From Herbaspirillum sp. AP02 (GTDB lineage Bacteria > Pseudomonadota > Gammaproteobacteria > Burkholderiales > Burkholderiaceae_D): a DNA stretch of 64,000 nucleotides. The DNA lies in NCBI RefSeq assembly GCF_015767275.1, contig NZ_JADWMY010000005.1, positions 124,001 through 188,000 of the forward strand, written 5' to 3'. Each line of letters starts with the position of its first letter. The first letter of the stretch is position 1. Position numbers and translations under genes: made by a program. Below the pieces are notes generated by a model that was not told where the DNA came from, made no database searches, and saw nothing but the letters and a program-made list of their open reading frames with translations. Below, piece after piece: positions 12,140 to 35,198 of this stretch.

Positions 12140-12949
12140 TCAGTCGACCGCAGCAGCCTTCATCTCTGCATTGTGATGACGTTGCTGCTCTTCCATCACC
12201 AACTGACCCAGCTCCCGCTTCAAGGCATTGAATTCGGGGTCGGCCGGATCGCGCAGGCGCGGCAGATTCACCAGCATGTCACGCTTGACGGTACCGGGGC
12301 GGTAGGTCATGACGACGATACGGTCAGCCAGGTAGATCGCTTCCTCGATGCTGTGGGTCACGAAGACGATGGTCTTCCTGAACTCGTCCCAGATGCGCAG
12401 CAATTCGTCCTGCAGGTTGCGACGGGTCAGGGCATCCAGGGCGCCAAAGGGCTCATCCATGAGCATGATGGGCGAATCCAGCGCCAGCACCCGGGCGATC
12501 GCCACCCGCTGGCGCATCCCGCCCGACAGGTCCTTGGGAAAACGGGTGCGGAAGTCGATCAGGCCCAGCTTGTCCAGCAACTGGGTCACGCGCTGGACGA
12601 TCTCGGCCTTGGGCGTTCCCTTGATTTCCAGGCCGAAGGCGACGTTCTGCTCCACCGTCATCCAGGGGAAGAGCGCATATTCCTGAAATACCATGCCGCG
12701 ATCCGGTCCCGGTTCGCTCACCACCTTGCCATCGGTGAGGATTTCCCCGGTGGAAGGCAGTGCGAAGCCGGCGATGGCATTCAGCAACGTGGACTTGCCG
12801 CAGCCGGACGGCCCCAGCAGGCAGACGAACTGGCCGTCGGGGATGTCCAGGTTGATGTCCTTCAAGGCGACCACCTCGCGGTCATCGGCCTTGAAGACCT
12901 TGTGTACGCCCTGCACGCGGATGCGGGGCGAAGAATTGGCTTGGTTCAT
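12140..12949 (-). CDS. Taurine/sulfonate/nitrate-type ABC transporter, ATP-binding subunit
   Basis: 269 residues, typical for TauB/SsuB. The ATPase signatures are GPSGCGKST (Walker A, about 46-54), QEYALFPW (Q-loop), LSGGMRQRVAIAR (ABC signature), LMDEPFGALDA (Walker B and D-loop) and VTHSIEEA (H-loop). The PFGALD and HSIEEA forms are characteristic of the NitT/TauT subclass. It energises the permease encoded 1 bp upstream. A 3' tail rich in Gln/His/Glu is ordinary for the subclass. The substrate is not predictable: no sulfonate oxygenase, nitrate reductase or thiamine-precursor gene is adjacent. Confidence 0.92.
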   Translation of the reverse strand: MNQANSSPRIRVQGVHKVFKADDREVVALKDINLDIPDGQFVCLLGPSGCGKSTLLNAIAGFALPSTGEILTDGKVVSEPGPDRGMVFQEYALFPWMTVEQNVAFGLEIKGTPKAEIVQRVTQLLDKLGLIDFRTRFPKDLSGGMRQRVAIARVLALDSPIMLMDEPFGALDALTRRNLQDELLRIWDEFRKTIVFVTHSIEEAIYLADRIVVMTYRPGTVKRDMLVNLPRLRDPADPEFNALKRELGQLVMEEQQRHHNAEMKAAAVD

Positions 12950-27272: not shown

Positions 27273-28325
27273 TCATCGTTCGATGGTGCGGCTCCAGCGG
27301 GTATTCCAGACGGCCCGGTTCTTGTTGATCTCGTCCCAATCCACCGCCCGTGCCGCCTTCACGAATCCGTTCATGCGTGCCTGCTCGGTCGCGGCCGCGC
27401 CGCTGACCTGGACCTTGGTATTGGTCGGGTTGTAATTGCCGTTTTCCAGCGCCAGTGCCTGCGCCTGCGGAGAAAGAAGATAAGCCGCCAGTTCCTGGGC
27501 CAGTTGTGGCTCGCTATTGTTGGCAATCACGCATTGCGCCACCATCAGCACCACCGCCCCCTCTTTGGGTTGCACATATTCCACCGGTACACCCTTGCTC
27601 TTGAGAATGGTGGACTGGGTCGGGGTGTAAGGGAACAAGGCGGCTTCCCCGGTCTGCGCCATCTCGGAAATCTTGGCCGAGTTGGAGATGTACTCCAGCA
27701 CATTGGGGCCGATGGTCGATGGCCAGGCCTTGAAGCCCGGATCGACGTTGGCATCGGTACCGCCCTTGAGCTGGTTGAAGGCAAGGAAGGCATGCAGCCC
27801 GAAGGTCGAGGAGGGCAGCGACTGGAATACCACTCGTCCCTTCAGCTTGGGATCGGCCAGGTCCAGCCAGGAGGTCGGCGGCGCCCAGCCCTTCTCGGCA
27901 TAGACCTTGGTGTTGTAGGCCAGGCCGGTGACGCTGATGGTCACGCCGGTGGCCATGTCGTCCTTGATATGCGCGACCGGCAGCAGGTTGGCCAGGTTGG
28001 GATTGGGCTTCTGTTTCTCGCACAGGCCCATGCCCACCGCGCGGTACATCACACCGTCATCAAGGAACATCAGGTGCATCTGCGGCTTGTCCTTGGCAGC
28101 CTGGGCCTTGGCCAGGATATCGGCCGAGCCGCCCGGTACCACGGCGATCTTGACATTGTGCTTCTGTTCAAAGGGGCCGAAGACCGATTGTGTGAACGTC
28201 TTTTCCATGTTGCCACCGTTCATGCCGATGTACAGCGTCCGGGTCTGCGCCTGGGCGCTGCCACAGGCCAGCAGGGTCATGCCAAGGGCGGCGGCCAGCG
28301 CGCCGGGACGGGAAAGCGACATCAT
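27273..28325 (-). CDS. Spermidine/putrescine-type ABC transporter binding protein
   Basis: 350 residues, starting at ATG 28325, which overlaps the preceding stop by 4 bp (AAGGAAG SD). A signal peptide covers about 1-26 (ALGMTLLACGSAQAQ). The mature protein is a type 2 periplasmic binding protein of the PotD/iron-type cluster: TRTLYIGMNGGNMEKTF at the start, SADILAKAQAAK, VSVTGLAYNTKVY-like core (here VTISVTGLAYNTKVYAEKG) and LLSPQAQALALENG near the end. It is the last gene of the operon, an unusual place for a binding protein, and should deliver the substrate to the two permeases. The ligand may be a polyamine, amino acid or related amine. Confidence 0.85.
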   Translation of the reverse strand: MMSLSRPGALAAALGMTLLACGSAQAQTRTLYIGMNGGNMEKTFTQSVFGPFEQKHNVKIAVVPGGSADILAKAQAAKDKPQMHLMFLDDGVMYRAVGMGLCEKQKPNPNLANLLPVAHIKDDMATGVTISVTGLAYNTKVYAEKGWAPPTSWLDLADPKLKGRVVFQSLPSSTFGLHAFLAFNQLKGGTDANVDPGFKAWPSTIGPNVLEYISNSAKISEMAQTGEAALFPYTPTQSTILKSKGVPVEYVQPKEGAVVLMVAQCVIANNSEPQLAQELAAYLLSPQAQALALENGNYNPTNTKVQVSGAAATEQARMNGFVKAARAVDWDEINKNRAVWNTRWSRTIER

Positions 28326-29521
28326 GAGATCTTCCTTTCAGGGTGGGAGGACAGCAGGTCGGAGGTATTTGCGCCATCGATGCCGACCGAGGAAACGGCA
28401 GGCGTCGAGGCAAAACGGGCAATCGAGAATGCATCGAGGTCGATATTGCTGCGGCCATGCAGCACCAGCTCGGCCAGCGCTTCACCGGCGGCCGGGCCGA
28501 TCTGGAAACCGGCGCCGCAGAAGCCGAAGCCATGCAGCAGGCCCGGCTGCGTGCTGCTGGGGCCGATCACCGGGTGGTGGTCCGGCAGGTAGCCTTCCAC
28601 CCCGCTCCAGGTGCGGATGATGTGGACGTGCCGCAGCGCCGGCAGCAAAGCCGCCGCCTGCGGCAGCAGGCCGAGGATGGAGTCGTGCGAGGCGCGGGCG
28701 CGCTGTTCATCCAGCACATAGCCGCGACCGCCGCCCAGCACCACGTTGCCACGGGCCACCTGACGGCAATAGATCGATCCCCCTTCCACGCCCAGGCTCC
28801 AGGGCAGGAAATGCGGGATGGGCTCGGTCACCACCATGCTGGGATGGCCGCTGGTCAACGGCGCGGCCTCGCCGAAGGCTTGCGCCACCCGGTTGGCCCA
28901 GGCCCCGGCGCAGTTGATCAACACCTCGGCGCGCAACTGCAAAGGCGCTTCGCCGTGCCGTGCTTCGGCCACGAAACTCTGGCCGTCATGGCCCACCTGC
29001 AATACTTCGCAGCCCTCGATGATGCGCGCCCCGGCCGCCTGCGCAGCGCGGGCGAAGGCCGGTGACACCAGACGCGGATTGGCCTGGCCGTCTTCCGGGC
29101 ACAAGGAGCCGCCGACCGCCGCGCCACCCAGCCAGGGGCATTGCTCACGCAGGCGCTCGCCGCTGATCAATTCGATGCCCAGCCCGTAGGGCCGGCTCAG
29201 CTCGGCATAGGCTTCCAGGGCCTGCATATCGGCGGCGCTGCGGGCCAGCTTGAAGTGGCCACTGCGTTCATATTCGCCGGTGGTGCCGATGAGCGACTCC
29301 AGCTCGCCCCAGATCTGGTGCGCCCGTTGCGACAAGGGCAACTGCACCTCGGGCCGGCCCTGGCGGCGCACACCACCGTAGTTCACGCCACTGGAACGCG
29401 AACCACAGAGATCGCGCTCCAGCACCGTCACGCGGCGGCCGGCCTTGGCCAGCACCAGCGCCGCCGATGCACCGACGATGCCACCGCCGATGATGAGCAC
29501 TTCAGTGGAAACGGTGTTCAC
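28322..29521 (-). CDS. FAD-dependent oxidoreductase, HcnC/OoxB/DadA-like subunit
   Basis: 399 residues of the D-amino-acid oxidase (DAO) superfamily. The N-terminal dinucleotide fold is VLIIGGGIVGASAALVLAKAG (about 8-28) with the distal Glu in VTVLERD. The substrate domain includes GGVRRQGRPEVQLPL and ICYCR-like part (SIYCRQVARGNVVLGGG), and the C-terminal FAD motif is GYLPDHHPVIGP...GFGFCGAGFQIGPAAGEALAELV. It resembles HcnC, OoxB of octopine/nopaline oxidase and the beta subunit of D-hydroxyproline dehydrogenase, which oxidise a C-N bond. It overlaps the neighbours by 4 bp on both sides. The substrate is not predictable; a D- or N-substituted amino acid or amine is likely. Confidence 0.87.
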   Translation of the reverse strand: MNTVSTEVLIIGGGIVGASAALVLAKAGRRVTVLERDLCGSRSSGVNYGGVRRQGRPEVQLPLSQRAHQIWGELESLIGTTGEYERSGHFKLARSAADMQALEAYAELSRPYGLGIELISGERLREQCPWLGGAAVGGSLCPEDGQANPRLVSPAFARAAQAAGARIIEGCEVLQVGHDGQSFVAEARHGEAPLQLRAEVLINCAGAWANRVAQAFGEAAPLTSGHPSMVVTEPIPHFLPWSLGVEGGSIYCRQVARGNVVLGGGRGYVLDEQRARASHDSILGLLPQAAALLPALRHVHIIRTWSGVEGYLPDHHPVIGPSSTQPGLLHGFGFCGAGFQIGPAAGEALAELVLHGRSNIDLDAFSIARFASTPAVSSVGIDGANTSDLLSSHPERKIS

Positions 29522-30966
29522 GATTCATCCTCCCCGGCATGCAGGGCAATGACCTGCGCCGACGGCAACACAGTCGCAGGCACGTGCATGCCCATGGGAA
29601 TGGGCTTGATCGGCGCCTGACCGCGCAGACGTCCGACCTCGGCCACCGGCACTGCCGCCGCATGGGCCAGGATCTCTGCTGCCGCGGCACCGCACATGCG
29701 TCCCTGGCAGCGCCCCATGCCCACGCGGGTCAGGGCCTTCAGGCGATTCATTTCCGCTGCGCCCTTCTCGCGCACGGCTGCGCGCAACTCTCCGGCACGG
29801 ATGTTTTCGCAGCGGCAGACCACCAGTTCATCGGGAGCATTGGCTGCCCAGTGTTCGGGGAAGGGAAAGGCCCGCTCCAGCCCCACGCGGAAGGCGCTGA
29901 TCTGCGCGAGCGTGGCTTCGATCTGCGCCACCCGGGCGCCATCGACCGTGATGCCGCGATCCTGCAACAGCGCCAGCGCGGCACGCTCGCCAGCCAGTTC
30001 GGCGGCGTCCGCCCCCATGATGCCGGCGCCGTCACCGGCCAGGTAAACGCCCGGCACGCTGCTACGGGTCGCGCGATCGCGCAGCGGCAGATGCGCCCGT
30101 TGCAGCGGGTCGAAACGGAAGCGGCAACCCAGCAGGTCGGCCAGTTGCGTTTCCGAGCGCAGAGCATAGCCGAAGCCTACGGCGTCGCAATCGATGCGTC
30201 GCTCCACGCCTGCCTTGGCACCGGCCCGGGCAGCTTGACGACGCCACACCACGCCCTGCACGCGGGACTCCCCCTCCACCCGTAGCACCTCGGCATGGGT
30301 GTGGACCGGCACGCCATGCAGTCGGAGCCAGGCCAGGTAGTAGATGCCCTTGACCAGCAATGCCGGCTGCCCCAGCATGGCCGGCAGCGCCGCGATGCGG
30401 TCGCCCAGGCGGCTGCTGTCAAGCACGGCCGCTACGTGGGCGCCGGCCTTGGCGTATTGATAGGCCACCAGATACAGCAGCGGACCATTGCCGGCCAACA
30501 CCACCGTGCGGCCGATGGCGCATCCCTGGAACTTGAGCGCAACCTGCGCGCCACCGAGCGTATAGACGCCCGGCGTGGTCCAGCCCGGGAAGGGCAGGAT
30601 GCGGTCGGTGGCGCCGGTGGCGACGATGATGTCGTCCCAGGCCAGGGTGGCCGCGGCCTGGGCCTGGCCATCCATCAGGTCGAGCAGGCCGGGCTGGGCA
30701 TTCCATACCAGGGTCTGCGGACGATAATCGATGGCCTCGCGCAAGGCATGGAAGGTGGCATGCACCGACTGCGCGCGTCCCGCTTCGAAACCATAGAGCG
30801 TCTTGCGGCTGCGCCGGAATCCGTTGGGCGGCTGGCGATAGATCTGGCCGCCCGCCTGGGCCGCCTCGTCAATCAGCACCGGTCGCAGGCCGTGGGCCAG
30901 GAGCGTCTGCGCCGCACGCACGCCGGCCGGTCCGGCACCGACGATCACGGGAGGGAGTCGACTCAT
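29518..30966 (-). CDS. FAD/NAD(P)-binding oxidoreductase with BFD-type [2Fe-2S] domain, HcnB/OoxA-like subunit
   Basis: 482 residues. The two-dinucleotide fold begins PPVIVGAGPAGVRAAQTL with the ATGATDRILPFPGW and VVLAGNGPLLYLVAYQYAKAGA second nucleotide site. FAD-binding VYLAGDGAGIMGADAAELAG lies at about 315-335. The last ~110 residues form a BFD-like iron-sulfur domain with CRC (about 398-400) and CQGRMC (about 432-437), four Cys in the right order. This is the alpha-subunit design of HcnB/OoxA-type dehydrogenases, which pass electrons between flavin and [2Fe-2S] and then to the respiratory chain. It sits between the Fe-S gene and the DAO-type gene with 4-bp overlaps. Confidence 0.87.
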   Translation of the reverse strand: MSRLPPVIVGAGPAGVRAAQTLLAHGLRPVLIDEAAQAGGQIYRQPPNGFRRSRKTLYGFEAGRAQSVHATFHALREAIDYRPQTLVWNAQPGLLDLMDGQAQAAATLAWDDIIVATGATDRILPFPGWTTPGVYTLGGAQVALKFQGCAIGRTVVLAGNGPLLYLVAYQYAKAGAHVAAVLDSSRLGDRIAALPAMLGQPALLVKGIYYLAWLRLHGVPVHTHAEVLRVEGESRVQGVVWRRQAARAGAKAGVERRIDCDAVGFGYALRSETQLADLLGCRFRFDPLQRAHLPLRDRATRSSVPGVYLAGDGAGIMGADAAELAGERAALALLQDRGITVDGARVAQIEATLAQISAFRVGLERAFPFPEHWAANAPDELVVCRCENIRAGELRAAVREKGAAEMNRLKALTRVGMGRCQGRMCGAAAAEILAHAAAVPVAEVGRLRGQAPIKPIPMGMHVPATVLPSAQVIALHAGEDES

Positions 30967-31277
30967 GCGCCCTCCCCCTGGCCGCTGCGCAATTGCATGC
31001 CGGCACGGATAAAGGTCGAACAGGCACGCAGGCGTTCACCGCTGTCGGTGGCGATCCAGCAATCCTGGCAAGCGCCCATCATGCAGAAGCCGGCGCGCGG
31101 CTGGCCGCTGAATTCATTGCGGCGCAGGCTGCCGGCGCAGGTCAGCACGGCGGTCAGCACGGTATCGCCTTCCAGCGCGGTGACGGCGCGGCCATCGAGG
31201 GTGAAGCTGACGGTGGCCCGATCCTGCTCGGCCAGCCGCACCAGCTGCGCACCCTGAAGAGAAGCGAGATCGCTCAT
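30963..31277 (-). CDS. (2Fe-2S)-binding protein, HcnA-like small subunit
   Basis: 104 residues with a plant-type ferredoxin-like [2Fe-2S] pattern: a beta-rich start VSFTLDGRAVTALEGDTVLTAVL, then GFCMMGACQDCWI (Cys-x4-Cys-x2-Cys, about residues 65-75) and the last ligand in LRACSTF. This is the gamma/small subunit of HcnABC-, opine-oxidase- and hydroxyproline-dehydrogenase-type enzymes. It overlaps the flavoprotein gene by 4 bp (ATGA) and the permease gene by 4 bp, so translation is coupled on both sides. Confidence 0.88.
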   Translation of the reverse strand: MSDLASLQGAQLVRLAEQDRATVSFTLDGRAVTALEGDTVLTAVLTCAGSLRRNEFSGQPRAGFCMMGACQDCWIATDSGERLRACSTFIRAGMQLRSGQGEGA

Positions 31278-32068
31278 GTGCGCCCCACCAGTACGCGGTC
31301 CAGGCCGTAGACCCGGTCCAGGATGATCATCGCCACCGCCGTGATGGCCACCATCAGGGCCGACACGGCCGCCATCATCGGATCAATGGATTCGGTGGCG
31401 TACATGTACATGCGCACCGGCAGCGTCACCGTCGAAGGCGAGGTCACGAAGATGGACATGGTGACTTCATCGAAGCTGTTGATGAAGGCCAGCAGCCAGC
31501 CACCGGTAATCCCCGGCAGGATCATCGGCAGCGTGATGCGCAGGAACACCGTGGAGCGCGAGGCCCCCAGCGACAGCGCAGCCTGCTCGGCACTGCGGTC
31601 GAAACCGATCAGCGCGGCCATGATCAGGCGCATGGTATAGGGCGTCACCACCAGCGAGTGCGCCAGCACCAGCCAGGCGAAACTGCCGGCGCCGCCTACC
31701 ACCGAGAACAGGCGCAGCAAGGCCACGCCCAGCACCAGGTGCGGGATGATCAGCGGTGACAGGAACAGGCCCTGCAAGACGCCCGACCAACGATGCGGAT
31801 AACGCACCAGCGCCATGGCCGCCGGAATGGCCAGCACGGTGGAGATGGTGGCTGCCGCCAGTGCCAGCCACAGGCTGTTCCAGAAGGAGCTGACGAAATC
31901 AGGGAATTCGAACACCGCCTTGAACCAACGCAGCGAGAATTCCGGCCCGTTCATGGTGAGGGTGTTTTCCGGGGTGAAGGCGATCACGCACACCACCAGG
32001 ATCGGCGCCAGCGTGAAGAGGATCACCAGCGCATTGAACAGCAATGCAATCGGTCCGTTCTTGTTCAT
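31274..32068 (-). CDS. Spermidine/putrescine-type ABC permease, PotC-like
   Basis: 264 residues with six membrane segments. The domain start MNKNGPIALLFNALVILFTLAPILVV and the PotC-like ENTLTMNGPEFSLRWFKAVF periplasmic loop are visible. The EAA motif that contacts the ATPase is EQAALSLGASRSTVFLRITLPMILPGI (about 165-190; here cited as AALSLGAS and LPMILPGI). Length and order (second permease after the PotB-like one) match PotC. It ends by overlapping the small Fe-S gene by 4 bp, which links uptake to the dehydrogenase. Confidence 0.9.
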   Translation of the reverse strand: MNKNGPIALLFNALVILFTLAPILVVCVIAFTPENTLTMNGPEFSLRWFKAVFEFPDFVSSFWNSLWLALAAATISTVLAIPAAMALVRYPHRWSGVLQGLFLSPLIIPHLVLGVALLRLFSVVGGAGSFAWLVLAHSLVVTPYTMRLIMAALIGFDRSAEQAALSLGASRSTVFLRITLPMILPGITGGWLLAFINSFDEVTMSIFVTSPSTVTLPVRMYMYATESIDPMMAAVSALMVAITAVAMIILDRVYGLDRVLVGRT

Positions 32069-32071
32069 GGT

Positions 32072-32989
32072 TCAGCCCAGCGCTTTCTTGTAGCGACGTT
32101 CGATCATGCGGTTCCAGCCCAGCATGATGACCAGGTTGGCCACCAGCAGCAGCAGCGCGATGGCTGCGCCCAGGGGCCAGTTCAGTTCGTGCAGGTATTC
32201 GTCATAGATGATGGTGGCCATCATCTTCAGGCGACGTCCGCCCAGGAGGCCAGGAATGGCAAAGGAGCTGGCCGACAGGCCGAAGACGATCAGGCTGCCC
32301 GAGAGGATGCCCGGCATGATCTGCGGCAGCACGATACGGCGCAGCACGGTCATGGGCGAGGCGCCCAGCGACAGCGCGGCATTGGCGACGCCGCCATCGA
32401 GCTTTTGCAGCGAGGTCCACACCGGGATCACCATGAAGGGGAGCATCACGTGTACCAGGGCGATGACGATGGCCGTCTCGGTATAGAGCAGCTTGACGCG
32501 GCTGAAACCCAGCGCCATCAGCAGGCTGTTGATCAGCCCTTCCGGCCCCAGCAGCATGCTCCAGCCAAAGGCCCGCACCACCACTGAAATCATCAACGGC
32601 GCCAGCACCACCAGCAGCATGACGGAACGCCAGGGCTTGCGCATGCGATTGAGGATGTAGGCTTCCGGCGCGCCCAGGACGATGCAGATCAGCGTGACCA
32701 GGCCCGAGATCCACAGCGTGCGCCAGAAGATGGCGTAGTAGTAGGGATCGGTGAGCACCGCCTGGTAATGCTCCAGCGTGAAGGTGCCGGCCTTGGGACC
32801 GGTCTCGGCATCATAGGCATTGAAGGACAGCACGAAGGTCAGCAGCAGCGGAACCAGCAGCATCACCGTGCACAGCAGGATGGCCGGGGCCGACATCAGC
32901 CAGGGCAGGCCGCGCTGGCCGGGCGGCTTGCCACCTTGCGGCGCCGTCACGCTGGGCGCCACCGCCGGCGAGGTACCGGCCGCACTCAT
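32072..32989 (-). CDS. Spermidine/putrescine-type ABC permease, PotB-like
   Basis: 305 residues. A Pro/Gly-rich cytoplasmic start (1-28) leads into six membrane segments, the first at PAILLCTVMLLVPLLLTFVL. The EAA motif is NAALSLGASPMTVLRRIVLP, about 205-224. The loop after the first segment contains FNAYDAETGPKAGTFTLEHY as in PotB-type proteins. It overlaps the ATPase gene by 4 bp and is 3 bp before the PotC-like gene. It forms the membrane channel with the PotC-like subunit. Confidence 0.9.
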   Translation of the reverse strand: MSAAGTSPAVAPSVTAPQGGKPPGQRGLPWLMSAPAILLCTVMLLVPLLLTFVLSFNAYDAETGPKAGTFTLEHYQAVLTDPYYYAIFWRTLWISGLVTLICIVLGAPEAYILNRMRKPWRSVMLLVVLAPLMISVVVRAFGWSMLLGPEGLINSLLMALGFSRVKLLYTETAIVIALVHVMLPFMVIPVWTSLQKLDGGVANAALSLGASPMTVLRRIVLPQIMPGILSGSLIVFGLSASSFAIPGLLGGRRLKMMATIIYDEYLHELNWPLGAAIALLLLVANLVIMLGWNRMIERRYKKALG

Positions 32990-34071
32990 GCCGGCACCCG
33001 TTCATCGCCACGGGCGGTGGAGACCAGGCGCAGGTTGAAGTCGCTCCAGACCAGGCCCAGCGGCGCGCCCTGCTCCAGCGCCTCGGCCCCGTCGTTGGGC
33101 GCCAGCACCGACAGCAGTCCCAGCGGCGTCTGCACCTCGTACATCCACTGGCTGCCCAGGAAGAAGCGACGTACCACTTCGCCATTGCAGCGGCCCTCGC
33201 CGGGCGCGGTACAGCGGATCTTTTCCGGGCGCAGACCCAGCACCACGCGACCACCGCCGCGCAAGCCACTGTCGCTGCTCTCCAGGCTGAGCATCATGCC
33301 GCCCACGGCGATATCGGCGCGCTCACCGGCGGCACCCACCACCTGGCCTTCCAGCAGGTTGGCCTTGCCCACGAAGGTGGAAATGAAACGATTGGCCGGA
33401 TGTTCATACACATTGATGGGACGGCCCACCTGGGTGATATGCCCGGCTTCCATCACCACCACGCGATCGCTGATGGACATGGCCTCGCTCTGGTCGTGGG
33501 TGACCATGATCGTGGTGGTACCGACCTTGCGCTGGATGTCGCGCAGTTCGAATTGCATTTCCTCGCGCAGCTTGGCGTCCAGGTTGGACAGGGGTTCGTC
33601 CAGCAGCAGCACGGGCGGCGCGATCACCAGCGCACGCGCCAGCGCCACACGCTGACGCTGGCCGCCGGAAAGTTCGCGCGGATAACGGCTGCCATGCTTT
33701 TCCAGGTGCACCAGGGCCAGCGCCTGCGCCACGCGGTCGCGCTTCTCCCCAGGCGAGCACTTGCGCATCTCCAGGCCGAAGGCCACGTTCTGCTCCACCG
33801 TCATATGCGGGAACAGTGCGTAGGTCTGGAACACGATGCCCAGGCCACGGGTATTGGGCTTGGCGTGGGTGATGTCGCGGCCATCGAGTTCGATGCGGCC
33901 GCCGCTGACGTTCTCGAAGCCTGCAATCATCTGCAGGGTCGTGGTCTTGCCGCAACCGGAGGGACCCAGCAGGGAAATGAATTCCCCCTTCTCCACCGTC
34001 AGATTGAAGCCCGATACCGCCTGGGTATCGCCGTAGAACTTACTGACATTGGTCAGCGTGAGAAATGACAT
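32986..34071 (-). CDS. Spermidine/putrescine-type ABC ATPase, PotA-like
   Basis: 361 residues from ATG 34071 (GGAG 6 bases upstream, and MSFLTLTNVSKFYGDTQ is the natural start; in-frame ATGs upstream reach 34167). Walker A GPSGCGKTT is at about 37-45, Q-loop QTYALFPHM, signature LSGGQRQRVALARAL, Walker B LLLDEPLSNLDA and the H-loop VTHDQSEA. A C-terminal TOBE_2 regulatory domain begins near residue 290 (GRPINVYEHPANRFIS precedes it). It is the first gene of the seven-gene operon; a sigma-54-type promoter lies about 140 bp upstream. Confidence 0.92.
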   Translation of the reverse strand: MSFLTLTNVSKFYGDTQAVSGFNLTVEKGEFISLLGPSGCGKTTTLQMIAGFENVSGGRIELDGRDITHAKPNTRGLGIVFQTYALFPHMTVEQNVAFGLEMRKCSPGEKRDRVAQALALVHLEKHGSRYPRELSGGQRQRVALARALVIAPPVLLLDEPLSNLDAKLREEMQFELRDIQRKVGTTTIMVTHDQSEAMSISDRVVVMEAGHITQVGRPINVYEHPANRFISTFVGKANLLEGQVVGAAGERADIAVGGMMLSLESSDSGLRGGGRVVLGLRPEKIRCTAPGEGRCNGEVVRRFFLGSQWMYEVQTPLGLLSVLAPNDGAEALEQGAPLGLVWSDFNLRLVSTARGDERVPA

Positions 34072-34211
34072 TGCAAGCTCCCTGTCGCAAAGTTCGGGCG
34101 CTGCACGGCTGGCGGGCTTGTCGGCCGGCGGGCGCTCCGATGCATTCATCTGTAAAGTCGCATCCACCTCAAGGAATGGGGTGATATGCGCGTCTCCTGT
34201 TTCGTTATCGA

Positions 34212-34280: not shown

Positions 34281-35198
34281 ATGGAATATCTGGACAGGCC
34301 TGACGCCACCGATTCCACCCAGCAGACAACAGCCCCCTTCATGAGCGACGACAACGACGAGGCTTCCTCGACCACCGCCCCGGCCACTCTTCCGGTCAAC
34401 GGCATCCAGCGCACCTTCGCGGTGTTGCGCGCACTGGCCGATGCACCACCGCAAGGCATGCGGGTGACCCAGGTGGCCAAGGCCATCGGCCTCACGCAAG
34501 GCACCACGCACCGCCTGCTGCAGGCCCTGGTGAGCGAAGGCGTGGTGGAGCAGGATGAACGCAGCAAGCTGTACCGCCTGGGGATGGACCTGTTCGCGCT
34601 GGCCGCGCGCGCCGGCAATGCCTCCGACCTGCGCAGCCTGTGCCGGCCGGCGCTGCTGCGCCTGTGCGGCAGCCTGGGCGATACCGTGTTCCTGCTGGTG
34701 CGCTCGCGCTTCGACGCGGTCTGCGTGGACCGGGTCGACGGTCCCTTCCCGATCCGTGCCTTCACCGGCGACATCGGTGGCCGCGTGGCACTGGGCGTGG
34801 GCCAGGGCGCGCTGTCCATCCTCGCCTTCCTGCCGGAACAGGAGCGCGAGGAAGTGATCCGCTACAACGTGCCGCGCCTGCGCGAGTTCGGGGTCTATGA
34901 CGAGGTCTACCTGCGCACCGAAATCGAGCGCGTGCGTGAAACCGGCTACGCGGCACGCCAGGCGGGCCTGCTCGACGGCATGGCCGGCCTGGCGGTGCCG
35001 CTGTTCGATTGCAGCGGCGCCATCGTGGGCGCCCTCAGCGTGGGTACGCTGACCTCGCGCCTGACCGAGGAACGTCTGCCGACCGTGGTACAGATGTTGC
35101 AACGGGAGGCCGCGGCACTGTCGCGCCAGATCAATCCCTTCGACCCGGCATTGCGCCGTCCCATGCACCAGGCCAATCCTGTGGAGCCCCGCCCATGA
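34281..35198 (+). CDS. IclR-family transcriptional regulator
   Basis: 305 residues from ATG 34281; neither this start nor ATG 34341 has a good SD, and the N-terminal 38 residues are poorly conserved-looking, so the true start may be 34341. The winged HTH is about residues 40-95: GIQRTFAVLRALAD, MRVTQVAKAIGLTQGTTHRLLQAL, SKLYRLG. The effector domain follows with GDTVFLLVRSRFDAVCVDRV, FTGDIGGRVALGVGQGALSILAF, and the C-terminal GLAVPLFDCSGAIVGALSVG. It is divergent from the transporter/dehydrogenase operon and overlaps the ghrA-like gene by 4 bp, so it is the likely local regulator of both. The inducer is unknown. Confidence 0.9.
   Translation: MEYLDRPDATDSTQQTTAPFMSDDNDEASSTTAPATLPVNGIQRTFAVLRALADAPPQGMRVTQVAKAIGLTQGTTHRLLQALVSEGVVEQDERSKLYRLGMDLFALAARAGNASDLRSLCRPALLRLCGSLGDTVFLLVRSRFDAVCVDRVDGPFPIRAFTGDIGGRVALGVGQGALSILAFLPEQEREEVIRYNVPRLREFGVYDEVYLRTEIERVRETGYAARQAGLLDGMAGLAVPLFDCSGAIVGALSVGTLTSRLTEERLPTVVQMLQREAAALSRQINPFDPALRRPMHQANPVEPRP

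Follow-up and report, generated by a model that had tools for sequence, protein, structure and literature searches.

A conserved importer and three-subunit dehydrogenase cassette in Herbaspirillum and its relatives, with pipecolate as candidate substrate

For OdhABC, a flavin-containing opine dehydrogenase, the constituent subunits have been described, and homologues of Oox and Nox are accompanied in many bacteria by putative ATP-binding cassette (ABC) transporter genes (PMC4575208). Here we compare with these and other known systems a seven-gene operon at positions 27273..34071 of a 64,000-nt stretch of Herbaspirillum DNA (the window), which encodes a binding-protein-dependent importer and a dehydrogenase whose alpha, beta and gamma subunits match those of OdhABC. 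We consider it very likely that importer and dehydrogenase together feed the aldehyde dehydrogenase AmaB. Because linkage to AmaB and to the 2-aminoadipate route recurs in relatives of the window, the substrate is expected to be pipecolate or another precursor of Δ1-piperideine-6-carboxylate (P6C) and aminoadipate semialdehyde. Judged from context, pipecolate itself, an amino acid derived from lysine, is the probable substrate, and L-pipecolate the most likely stereoisomer.

Two further described systems bear on this proposal. The archaeal L-proline dehydrogenase PDH1 of Pyrococcus horikoshii (Protein Data Bank (PDB) entry 1y56) catalyses analogous chemistry. The step that we propose for the trio, from L-pipecolate to P6C, is that of the classical pipecolate oxidase AmaA and of the putative oxidase PGA1_262p02210 of Phaeobacter inhibens (PMC5653290), which are encoded near AmaB and are single-chain enzymes, unlike the trio considered here. 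Lysine degradation in P. inhibens runs partly via L-pipecolate, which accumulates when the bacterium loses its 262-kb plasmid and with it a putative pipecolate oxidase gene (PMC5653290).

Architecture and conservation of the cassette

The window spans positions 124001-188000 of contig C5 of its own genome, a 5.33-Mb assembly of 24 contigs labelled G000 (G, L and C labels denote genomes, locus stretches and contigs), and coordinates below are window positions unless a contig or locus is named. Beta shares 97% identity with its counterpart in H. frisingense GSF30 (L013), which identifies the genome as Herbaspirillum. An earlier note on this DNA had described seven genes in the order potA-potB-potC-gamma-alpha-beta-SBP (solute-binding protein) on one strand, and the order, the strand and the domain types were all confirmed from the sequence and by domain searches. 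The features of the locus are as follows:

32986..34071, minus strand: PotA-like ABC ATPase (ABC_tran and TOBE_2), ATG at 34071 preceded by AGGGAG
32072..32989, minus strand: PotB-like permease (domain and PotB model match)
31274..32068, minus strand: PotC-like permease (domain and PotC model match)
30963..31277, minus strand: gamma subunit, a [2Fe-2S] Fer2_4 protein (Cys 65, 70, 73 and 86)
29518..30966, minus strand: alpha subunit with Pyr_redox_2 (flavin adenine dinucleotide, FAD), Fer2_BFD [2Fe-2S] and SO_alpha_A3 (best PDB match 1y56_A)
28322..29521, minus strand: beta subunit, catalytic flavoprotein of the D-amino acid oxidase (DAO) type (best PDB sequence match 1y56_B)
27273..28325, minus strand: periplasmic SBP (SBP_bac_8 domain match; N terminus signal-peptide-like by eye)
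34281..35198, plus strand: IclR-family regulator, divergent from the operon and kept with the cassette
35195 (ATG)..36151, plus strand: GhrA-like D-2-hydroxyacid dehydrogenase, overlapping iclR by 4 bp

A GTG at 34167 is a possible longer alternative start of the potA-like gene. The sequence also bears out the junctions as first described: 4-bp overlaps at potA/potB, potC/gamma, gamma/alpha, alpha/beta and beta/SBP (four ATGA and one GTGA), and a 3-bp gap at potB/potC, the sole non-overlap among the six. Short gene overlaps are common in bacterial operons. The stop/start overlaps suggest translational coupling; the co-translation asserted by the earlier note is an extrapolation from overlaps that are themselves real. 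Elsewhere in the window, a second PotA-like ATPase match begins at 12308 on the minus strand and is 48% identical to the PotA-like protein of the cassette.

All cofactor motifs looked for are intact: GPSGCGKT and LSGGQ in the PotA-like ATPase, GGGIVG at residue 12 and RTW at 303 in beta, GAGPAG at residue 10 and C-X-C-X33-C-X4-C from 384 in alpha, and C-X4-C-X2-C-X12-C from residue 65 in gamma. The last fits the family motif C-X4-C-X2-C-X11~12-C, and alpha has a GxGxxG and four cysteines, the latter aligned with those of NoxA and OoxA, with a spacing of X33 versus the X15~20 printed for the family (PMC4575208). Beta has the DAO fold, N-terminal GxGxxG and R-X-W found in three-subunit flavin/Fe-S amino acid dehydrogenases. 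The earlier reading of the locus as a catabolic operon for uptake and oxidation is supported, its enzyme being a three-subunit FAD/Fe-S dehydrogenase of the OdhABC, D-hydroxyproline dehydrogenase or HcnABC kind.

Genomes in GTDB were scanned with an alignment of five beta proteins, and the best 80 of at least 590 confirmed relatives were examined as loci extending up to 10 kb on each side. A search for the exact seven-gene order, which the earlier note had recommended, found it on one strand in 75 of these 80 named loci, more than chance would give. Four of the remaining five (L041, L059, L062 and L086) are interrupted by a contig end, and the fifth (L065, Acidovorax sp. SUPP3334) keeps gamma-alpha-beta-SBP, with no potABC match in ~8 kb of unmasked upstream sequence. 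The loci come from Herbaspirillum, Duganella, Acidovorax, Variovorax, Polaromonas, Rhizobacter, Rhodoferax, Ramlibacter, Curvibacter, Hydrogenophaga, Pseudomonas and other β-proteobacteria, and plasmids from Azospirillum, Ensifer, Burkholderia and Paraburkholderia share this gene order. Given these 75 loci and the plasmid copies, the genes form a standard catabolic cassette and not a singular arrangement; since Pot-type importers also stand beside other trios, the notion that such a trio is not usually sandwiched within one was wrong or at least too strong. A scan of viral contigs gave three pattern matches and no relative.

The divergent iclR gene is present in 73 of the 75 full loci, the exceptions (L047 and L089) having potA starting at a contig end, and its product probably controls the operon. 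GhrA lies beside the cassette in only three of the 80 named loci (L013, L014 and L015, from Herbaspirillum and Duganella), and also in G403, G185 and G339; it is probably accessory. Of the two divergent genes once thought to complete the locus, only iclR is thus a regular member.

None of the importer proteins is an equivalog of PotABCD, since every Pot model in NCBIfam scored below its cut-off. The PotA-like ATPase matched PhnT2 best (373.8 bits, cut-off 457.7) and the PotA model with 359 bits (cut-off 482), the permeases matched PotB with 176 bits (cut-off 348) and PotC with 148 bits (cut-off 326), and the SBP, with 23.6 bits against PotD (cut-off 582), resembles Fe(III)- and 2-aminoethylphosphonate-type binding proteins more closely. 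The term 'polyamine-type' used by the earlier note therefore survives as a superfamily label only, and spermidine/putrescine import was rejected on the same scores. Importers that share 46-58% identity with that of the cassette in ATPase and permeases, and 36-39% in the SBP, stand by beta1-gamma-alpha-beta2 or related clusters in A. brasilense and B. multivorans, and by a gamma-alpha-beta trio on a plasmid of A. salinitolerans. A structure model of the SBP was poor (predicted local distance difference test, pLDDT, 53) and was set aside.

In sequence searches of the PDB, alpha and beta both matched 1y56 best. Beta is ~25% identical to its PDH1 counterpart, and the cassette differs from PDH1 in its separate gamma subunit, its importer and its proposed six-ring substrate. 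Structure prediction, also recommended earlier, gave an AlphaFold2 model of beta with a pLDDT of 86.3, for which Foldseek returned 1y56_B first and glycine oxidase (4ysh) in a near tie.

The placement of beta was examined in a tree of 38 proteins, in which the HcnC-like, D-hydroxyproline-like and beta2 rows are stand-ins labelled by gene context and length (the two HcnC-like rows by gene order, length and ThiO-model score). The window protein falls within its own clade of 14 rows (100/100), whose sister group (100/99) comes from Pseudomonas and is accompanied by a Dpp-type importer. It lies apart from a Nox/Oox-type clade of eight rows (100/100) and outside the two HcnC-like rows, and the beta2-like stand-ins from Ti plasmids and a second Herbaspirillum cluster form a separate clade (95/95). 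Branching relative to beta2, to proteins linked to dihydrodipicolinate synthase (DHDPS) and to 1y56 is poorly supported, with long branches flagged. Beta is not of the Nox/Oox type and forms a clade of its own; to the extent that the context-labelled rows represent HcnC, it appears not to be HcnC-like either.

NoxAB/OoxAB was rejected as the identity of the trio, and HcnABC and D-hydroxyproline dehydrogenase are considered improbable, as neither tree nor context fits, with HcnC, BjOdhB2, BtOdhB and LhpB represented by context-labelled stand-ins. Hydroxyproline epimerase, DHDPS-type deaminase and α-ketoglutarate semialdehyde (KGSA) dehydrogenase genes are absent from the window locus, and no hydroxyproline-pathway neighbours were seen among the 18 non-cassette gene clusters common to at least eight of the 80 loci, nine of which were family-searched.

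The resemblance to OdhABC and to NoxAB and OoxAB of Ti plasmids extends to the FAD and BFD domains of alpha (32-36% identical to NoxA and OoxA), the DAO-type beta with R-X-W, the [2Fe-2S] gamma and the presence of an ABC importer in the cluster. Beta, however, is only ~26% identical to NoxB, the relatives of the cassette occur in a context of 2-aminoadipate catabolism, and the importer is Pot-like, unlike that of occ and noc. The occ/noc importers are of the polar-amino-acid type. We regard it as improbable that the cassette serves to take up octopine-like opines through a Pot-type importer and to oxidise them by a flavin-containing type-2 opine dehydrogenase (OpnDH) such as that of Bradyrhizobium. 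Related trios do occur on Ti plasmids, the subunits are the same, the gamma-alpha-beta order is that of OdhC-A-B in B. thailandensis, and type-2 beta subunits are described as close to archaeal L-proline dehydrogenase (PMC4575208). The beta clade is nevertheless distinct from NoxB/OoxB, and it excludes the beta2 proteins encoded on Ti plasmids and in the second Herbaspirillum cluster; none of the 18 shared clusters matched the ornithine cyclodeaminase or arginase labels of pTiC58, and the linkage to AmaB would be left unexplained.

Linkage to AmaB and the 2-aminoadipate route

Apart from the cassette and iclR, the commonest gene among the 80 loci encodes an aldehyde dehydrogenase. NCBIfam identified it as AmaB, L-piperidine-6-carboxylate (P6C) dehydrogenase (NF050084, 800 bits, cut-off 730), and the KGSA dehydrogenase of the hydroxyproline pathway was rejected as its identity. 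By tblastn, AmaB is present in 38 of the 80 loci at ≥55% identity and in 39 at ≥45%, and by simple arithmetic the chance that one given gene falls within a 21-kb stretch of a 5.5-Mb genome is ~0.4%. Copies more than 10 kb from the cassette would have escaped this survey. AmaB lies beyond iclR in 32 of the 39 loci, directly after the SBP gene on the same strand in five (L025, L038, L064, L083 and L092), and further downstream on the opposite strand in two (L055 and L066). The linkage is found in Variovorax (23/25 loci), Acidovorax (7/14), Polaromonas (3/4), Ramlibacter (1/1), Curvibacter (1/1), Rhodoferax (1/3) and loci of unstated genus (3/4), and not in Rhizobacter (0/2), Duganella (0/1) or Hydrogenophaga (0/1). 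A 310-residue neighbour of AmaB is a GcvA-like LysR regulator by NCBIfam; the other shared clusters that were family-searched (choline-dehydrogenase-like, efflux major facilitator superfamily (MFS), MlaE, DUF3034, cytochrome c, catalase and polar-amino-acid SBP) were uninformative.

In six loci (L008, L060, L061, L160, L165 and L166) AmaB, an aminotransferase and HglS occur together with the cassette. The order HglS-aminotransferase-AmaB-potABC-gamma-alpha-beta-SBP runs on one strand in L008 (Caballeronia sp. SBC1, with HglS at the very end of the stretch retrieved) and L160 (G320). Two loci from the window's own genus, L165 (G185, contig C3) and L166 (G142), have HglS, a FAD oxidase resembling D-2-hydroxyglutarate dehydrogenase, LysR, AmaB, potABC, gamma-alpha-beta, SBP and the aminotransferase in that order. 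In Polaromonas (L060 and L061) the AmaB, aminotransferase and HglS genes lie beyond iclR, and L052 carries aminotransferase, oxidase and HglS, with no AmaB seen within the fetched stretch. HglS was assigned by Pfam PF07063 (2-oxoadipate dioxygenase/decarboxylase) and the aminotransferase by Aminotran_1_2 in L160 and L162, and the oxidase by FAD_binding_4/FAD-oxidase_C in L162; pathway genes of other loci were called by similarity.

The genome of the window carries a comparable operon on another contig (L162, C2:425000-442000), which reads HglS-oxidase-AmaB-SBP-aminotransferase, without the potABC-gamma-alpha-beta found in G185 and G142. A LysR gene was called between oxidase and AmaB in its near twin L163. 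The L162 SBP shares 81% identity with its counterpart in G142 and 54% with the SBP of the window, and no permease genes adjoin it in that stretch. G185 holds both types of cassette (L165 and L172). The simplest reading is that the IclR-type cassette of the window supplies the import and first oxidation steps missing from the C2 operon.

A second beta tree comprised 52 selected cassette rows, with four more as outgroup. Across the 52, linkage to AmaB or to HglS pathway genes, treated as a label, requires nine changes; the clade that contains the window has 21 rows (98/99), 11 of them linked, and linked rows are found also in the clade with Caballeronia, G185-C3 and G142. A single function across the whole cassette clade would be the economical reading of this distribution. 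Some other amino acid or amine (a D-amino acid, hydroxyproline or a glycine-type substrate) might instead be used independently of AmaB, with the linkage representing inherited synteny of lysine genes in Burkholderiales, and the lack of AmaB linkage in the Pseudomonas and Herbaspirillum loci and in the plasmid stretches examined from Azospirillum, Ensifer, Burkholderia and Paraburkholderia would be in keeping with this. We regard it as unlikely, given that the linkage recurs in various orientations and positions, that the label changes so often on the tree, and that the one-strand clusters carry the whole route.

Co-occurrence across genomes points in the same direction as linkage (one-sided Fisher tests, in which relatedness of genomes was ignored). 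In a sample of 250 genomes from the order, AmaB is present in 54, the cassette (E ≤ 1e-120) in 8 and both in 7 (p = 1.1e-4); at E ≤ 1e-150, AmaB is present in 7 of 7 cassette genomes (p = 1.6e-5), and counted by genus the comparison is 5/6 versus 29/120 (p = 0.003). The family sample of 195 genomes has AmaB in 69, the cassette (E ≤ 1e-60) in 18 and both in 14 (p = 1.5e-4), or 14 of 15 when the three weakest matches (G108, G182 and G184) are left aside (p = 2e-6). Among 34 selected named cassette genomes drawn from the 80 loci, 32 have AmaB (31 over cut-off), including 20 of the 22 outside Pseudomonas.

Relatives of AmaA (NF050086, cut-off 600; E ≤ 1e-100) were found in only five of the same 250 order-sample genomes, one of them over the cut-off, so most of the 54 AmaB carriers there are without an AmaA-type enzyme. 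In three of the five (G256, G263 and G306), where no cassette was found, an AmaA-type gene follows AmaB on the same strand at a distance of 1.5-2.7 kb, one or two genes lying between; that of G256 is over the cut-off. The G263 and G306 proteins are 41-42% identical to a single-chain FAD oxidoreductase encoded on the Phaeobacter plasmid pPGA1_262, which we take, by a presumed locus-tag match, for the putative pipecolate oxidase PGA1_262p02210. The beta subunit is 25% identical to this oxidoreductase and scores 64.7 bits against the AmaA model. The other two, G300 and G339, which have the cassette, contain AmaA relatives of ~345 bits that are not beside AmaB, and among the 22 named cassette genomes outside Pseudomonas none has AmaA over the cut-off, with six weak relatives at 328-345 bits. 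To judge from the three cassette-free genomes, AmaA and the cassette look like alternatives near AmaB.

Pipecolate as the proposed substrate

The earlier note had left the substrate as a D-amino acid, an N-substituted amino acid or an amine. An amino acid, possibly substituted, remains probable, and the linkage to AmaB narrows the choice to pipecolate and other precursors of P6C. Pipecolate is favoured because AmaA-type oxidases lie near AmaB in the three cassette-free genomes, and because the best PDB match of beta, by sequence and by Foldseek, is a dehydrogenase that acts on L-proline. Proline is the five-ring homologue of pipecolate.

According to this proposal, the SBP would capture pipecolate in the periplasm and the PotABC-like proteins would import it. 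The FAD of beta would then oxidise the ring amine, presumably yielding P6C, and electrons would pass through the alpha flavin and the [2Fe-2S] centres to the respiratory chain, as expected of an enzyme of the dye-linked type. P6C, which is in equilibrium with aminoadipate semialdehyde, would be converted by AmaB to L-2-aminoadipate. An aminotransferase, HglS and the oxidase resembling D-2-hydroxyglutarate dehydrogenase would carry this product on to 2-oxoglutarate; in the window's Herbaspirillum, the genes for these later steps are on contig C2.

Several observations weigh against this assignment. AmaB would equally follow oxidation of saccharopine or of an N6-substituted lysine. The modelled fold of beta does not discriminate between proline dehydrogenase and two oxidases, since by Z score it matches glycine oxidase and the beta subunit of sarcosine oxidase equally well. 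The window locus itself is without AmaB, linkage is absent from all 22 Pseudomonas and both Herbaspirillum loci among the 80, and the linked loci, mostly from Variovorax (23) and Acidovorax (7), largely represent one arrangement by descent. The Fisher tests are uncorrected for that relatedness, and the cassette occurs without AmaB in G371 of the order sample, in G174, G108, G182 and G184 of the family sample, and in G455 and G456 of the named cassette genomes. The AmaA-type genes of G263 and G306 are under the AmaA cut-off (428 and 439 bits), H. frisingense GSF30 has a weak AmaA relative (333 bits against 600), and one is probably present just under threshold in G000. Finally, all 12 Pseudomonas cassette genomes examined have AmaA over the cut-off beside AmaB, so the cassette there would be redundant for L-pipecolate; it may serve either exogenous pipecolate or another stereoisomer, or else a different substrate.

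This redundancy would vanish if the substrate were an N6-substituted lysine (saccharopine, N6-carboxymethyl- or N6-carboxyethyl-lysine, or methyl-lysine), an opine-like secondary amine. Its cleavage could give either an amino acid or amine together with aminoadipate semialdehyde, on which AmaB would act, or lysine together with a 2-oxo acid, for instance glyoxylate, that GhrA would reduce. Opine dehydrogenases belong to the enzyme family (PMC4575208), the AmaB linkage fits equally, and in Herbaspirillum and Duganella iclR and a GhrA-like glyoxylate/hydroxypyruvate reductase gene adjoin the cassette. GhrA, however, was discarded as a pointer to glyoxylate on account of its rarity, the nearest solved enzyme is a proline dehydrogenase, and the AmaA-type oxidases near AmaB in the cassette-free genomes point to pipecolate. 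We consider such a substrate rather unlikely, if the least so of the alternatives.

Returning to pipecolate, we put forward with some reserve the broader possibility that the cassette encodes a heteromeric pipecolate dehydrogenase not described before, coupled to the respiratory chain and equipped with a dedicated ABC importer. Such a system would be widespread in plant and soil proteobacteria, taking the place of AmaA in Burkholderiales and working alongside it in Pseudomonas. It might allow these bacteria to consume pipecolate, the signal used by plants in systemic acquired resistance, and perhaps also N-hydroxypipecolate. Bacteria often break pipecolate down to 2-oxoadipate, and in plants both compounds can initiate systemic acquired resistance (PMC7286885). 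Pipecolate and aminoadipate are more abundant in P. phymatum nodules than in roots, and less so in nodules of an rpoN mutant (PMC8073898, PMC5979394).

The enzyme architecture and the importer class are known, and the function is apparently without earlier assignment. A literature search, with most subscription papers outside its reach, found no paper that assigns the cassette or names such a pipecolate enzyme or dedicated importer; on pipecolate dehydrogenase, transporter, utilization and catabolism it found one paper, which mentions an OusA-type MFS annotation, and a passage of PMC9007349 has nothing on the cassette. If the proposal is correct, the cassette fills a missing step before AmaB, as far as a survey of AmaA-type enzymes among the routes to P6C can tell, and the family of proline, opine and hydroxyproline dehydrogenases extends to six-ring substrates. 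The cassette would also include, to our knowledge, the first candidate for a dedicated pipecolate ABC importer, and bacteria able to remove pipecolate or N-hydroxypipecolate would bear on plant-microbe work.

Related clusters and neighbouring genes

A second cluster in the genome of the window (C11:59000-78500; L004 6824-18057) comprises LysR, SBP, a Pot-type ABC importer, a Nox-like beta1, gamma, alpha, RidA, a second alpha and beta2. It resembles the cassette in combining a Pot-type importer with beta, gamma and alpha (SBP ~40% identical), and differs from it in its LysR and RidA genes and in having alpha and beta twice each, with one beta Nox-like. By analogy with the B1-C-A-B2 arrangement reported for Bradyrhizobium, this cluster looks opine-type. 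On pTiBo542 (L117) and pTiEU6 (L118), gamma-alpha-beta or beta1-gamma-alpha-beta2 genes lie by ABC importers of other layout, and octopine/nopaline dehydrogenase-family genes are also present.

A sister cassette in Pseudomonas (L149 in G203, L150 in G200 and L158 in G198) combines a DAO oxidase, a Dpp-type importer and gamma-alpha-beta with genes for an acetylornithine deacetylase-like hydrolase and a succinate-semialdehyde dehydrogenase-like protein, and in L150 a tartrate dehydrogenase-like protein; its gene families were searched in L150 alone. In Variovorax paradoxus NBRC 15149 (G202), a single frame of 984 residues (L152 7847-10801) fuses Fer2_4, FAD/BFD and DAO, that is, gamma, alpha and beta, and adjoins a DHDPS-family gene, a hydroxyproline-like context. 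In Variovorax sp. KBW07, the MFS protein at L020 12249-13490 scores 492 bits against the NCBIfam model for tetracycline efflux proteins of the Tet(A)/Tet(B)/Tet(C) type, above its cut-off of 475, and its gene cluster occurs in 10 of the 80 loci.

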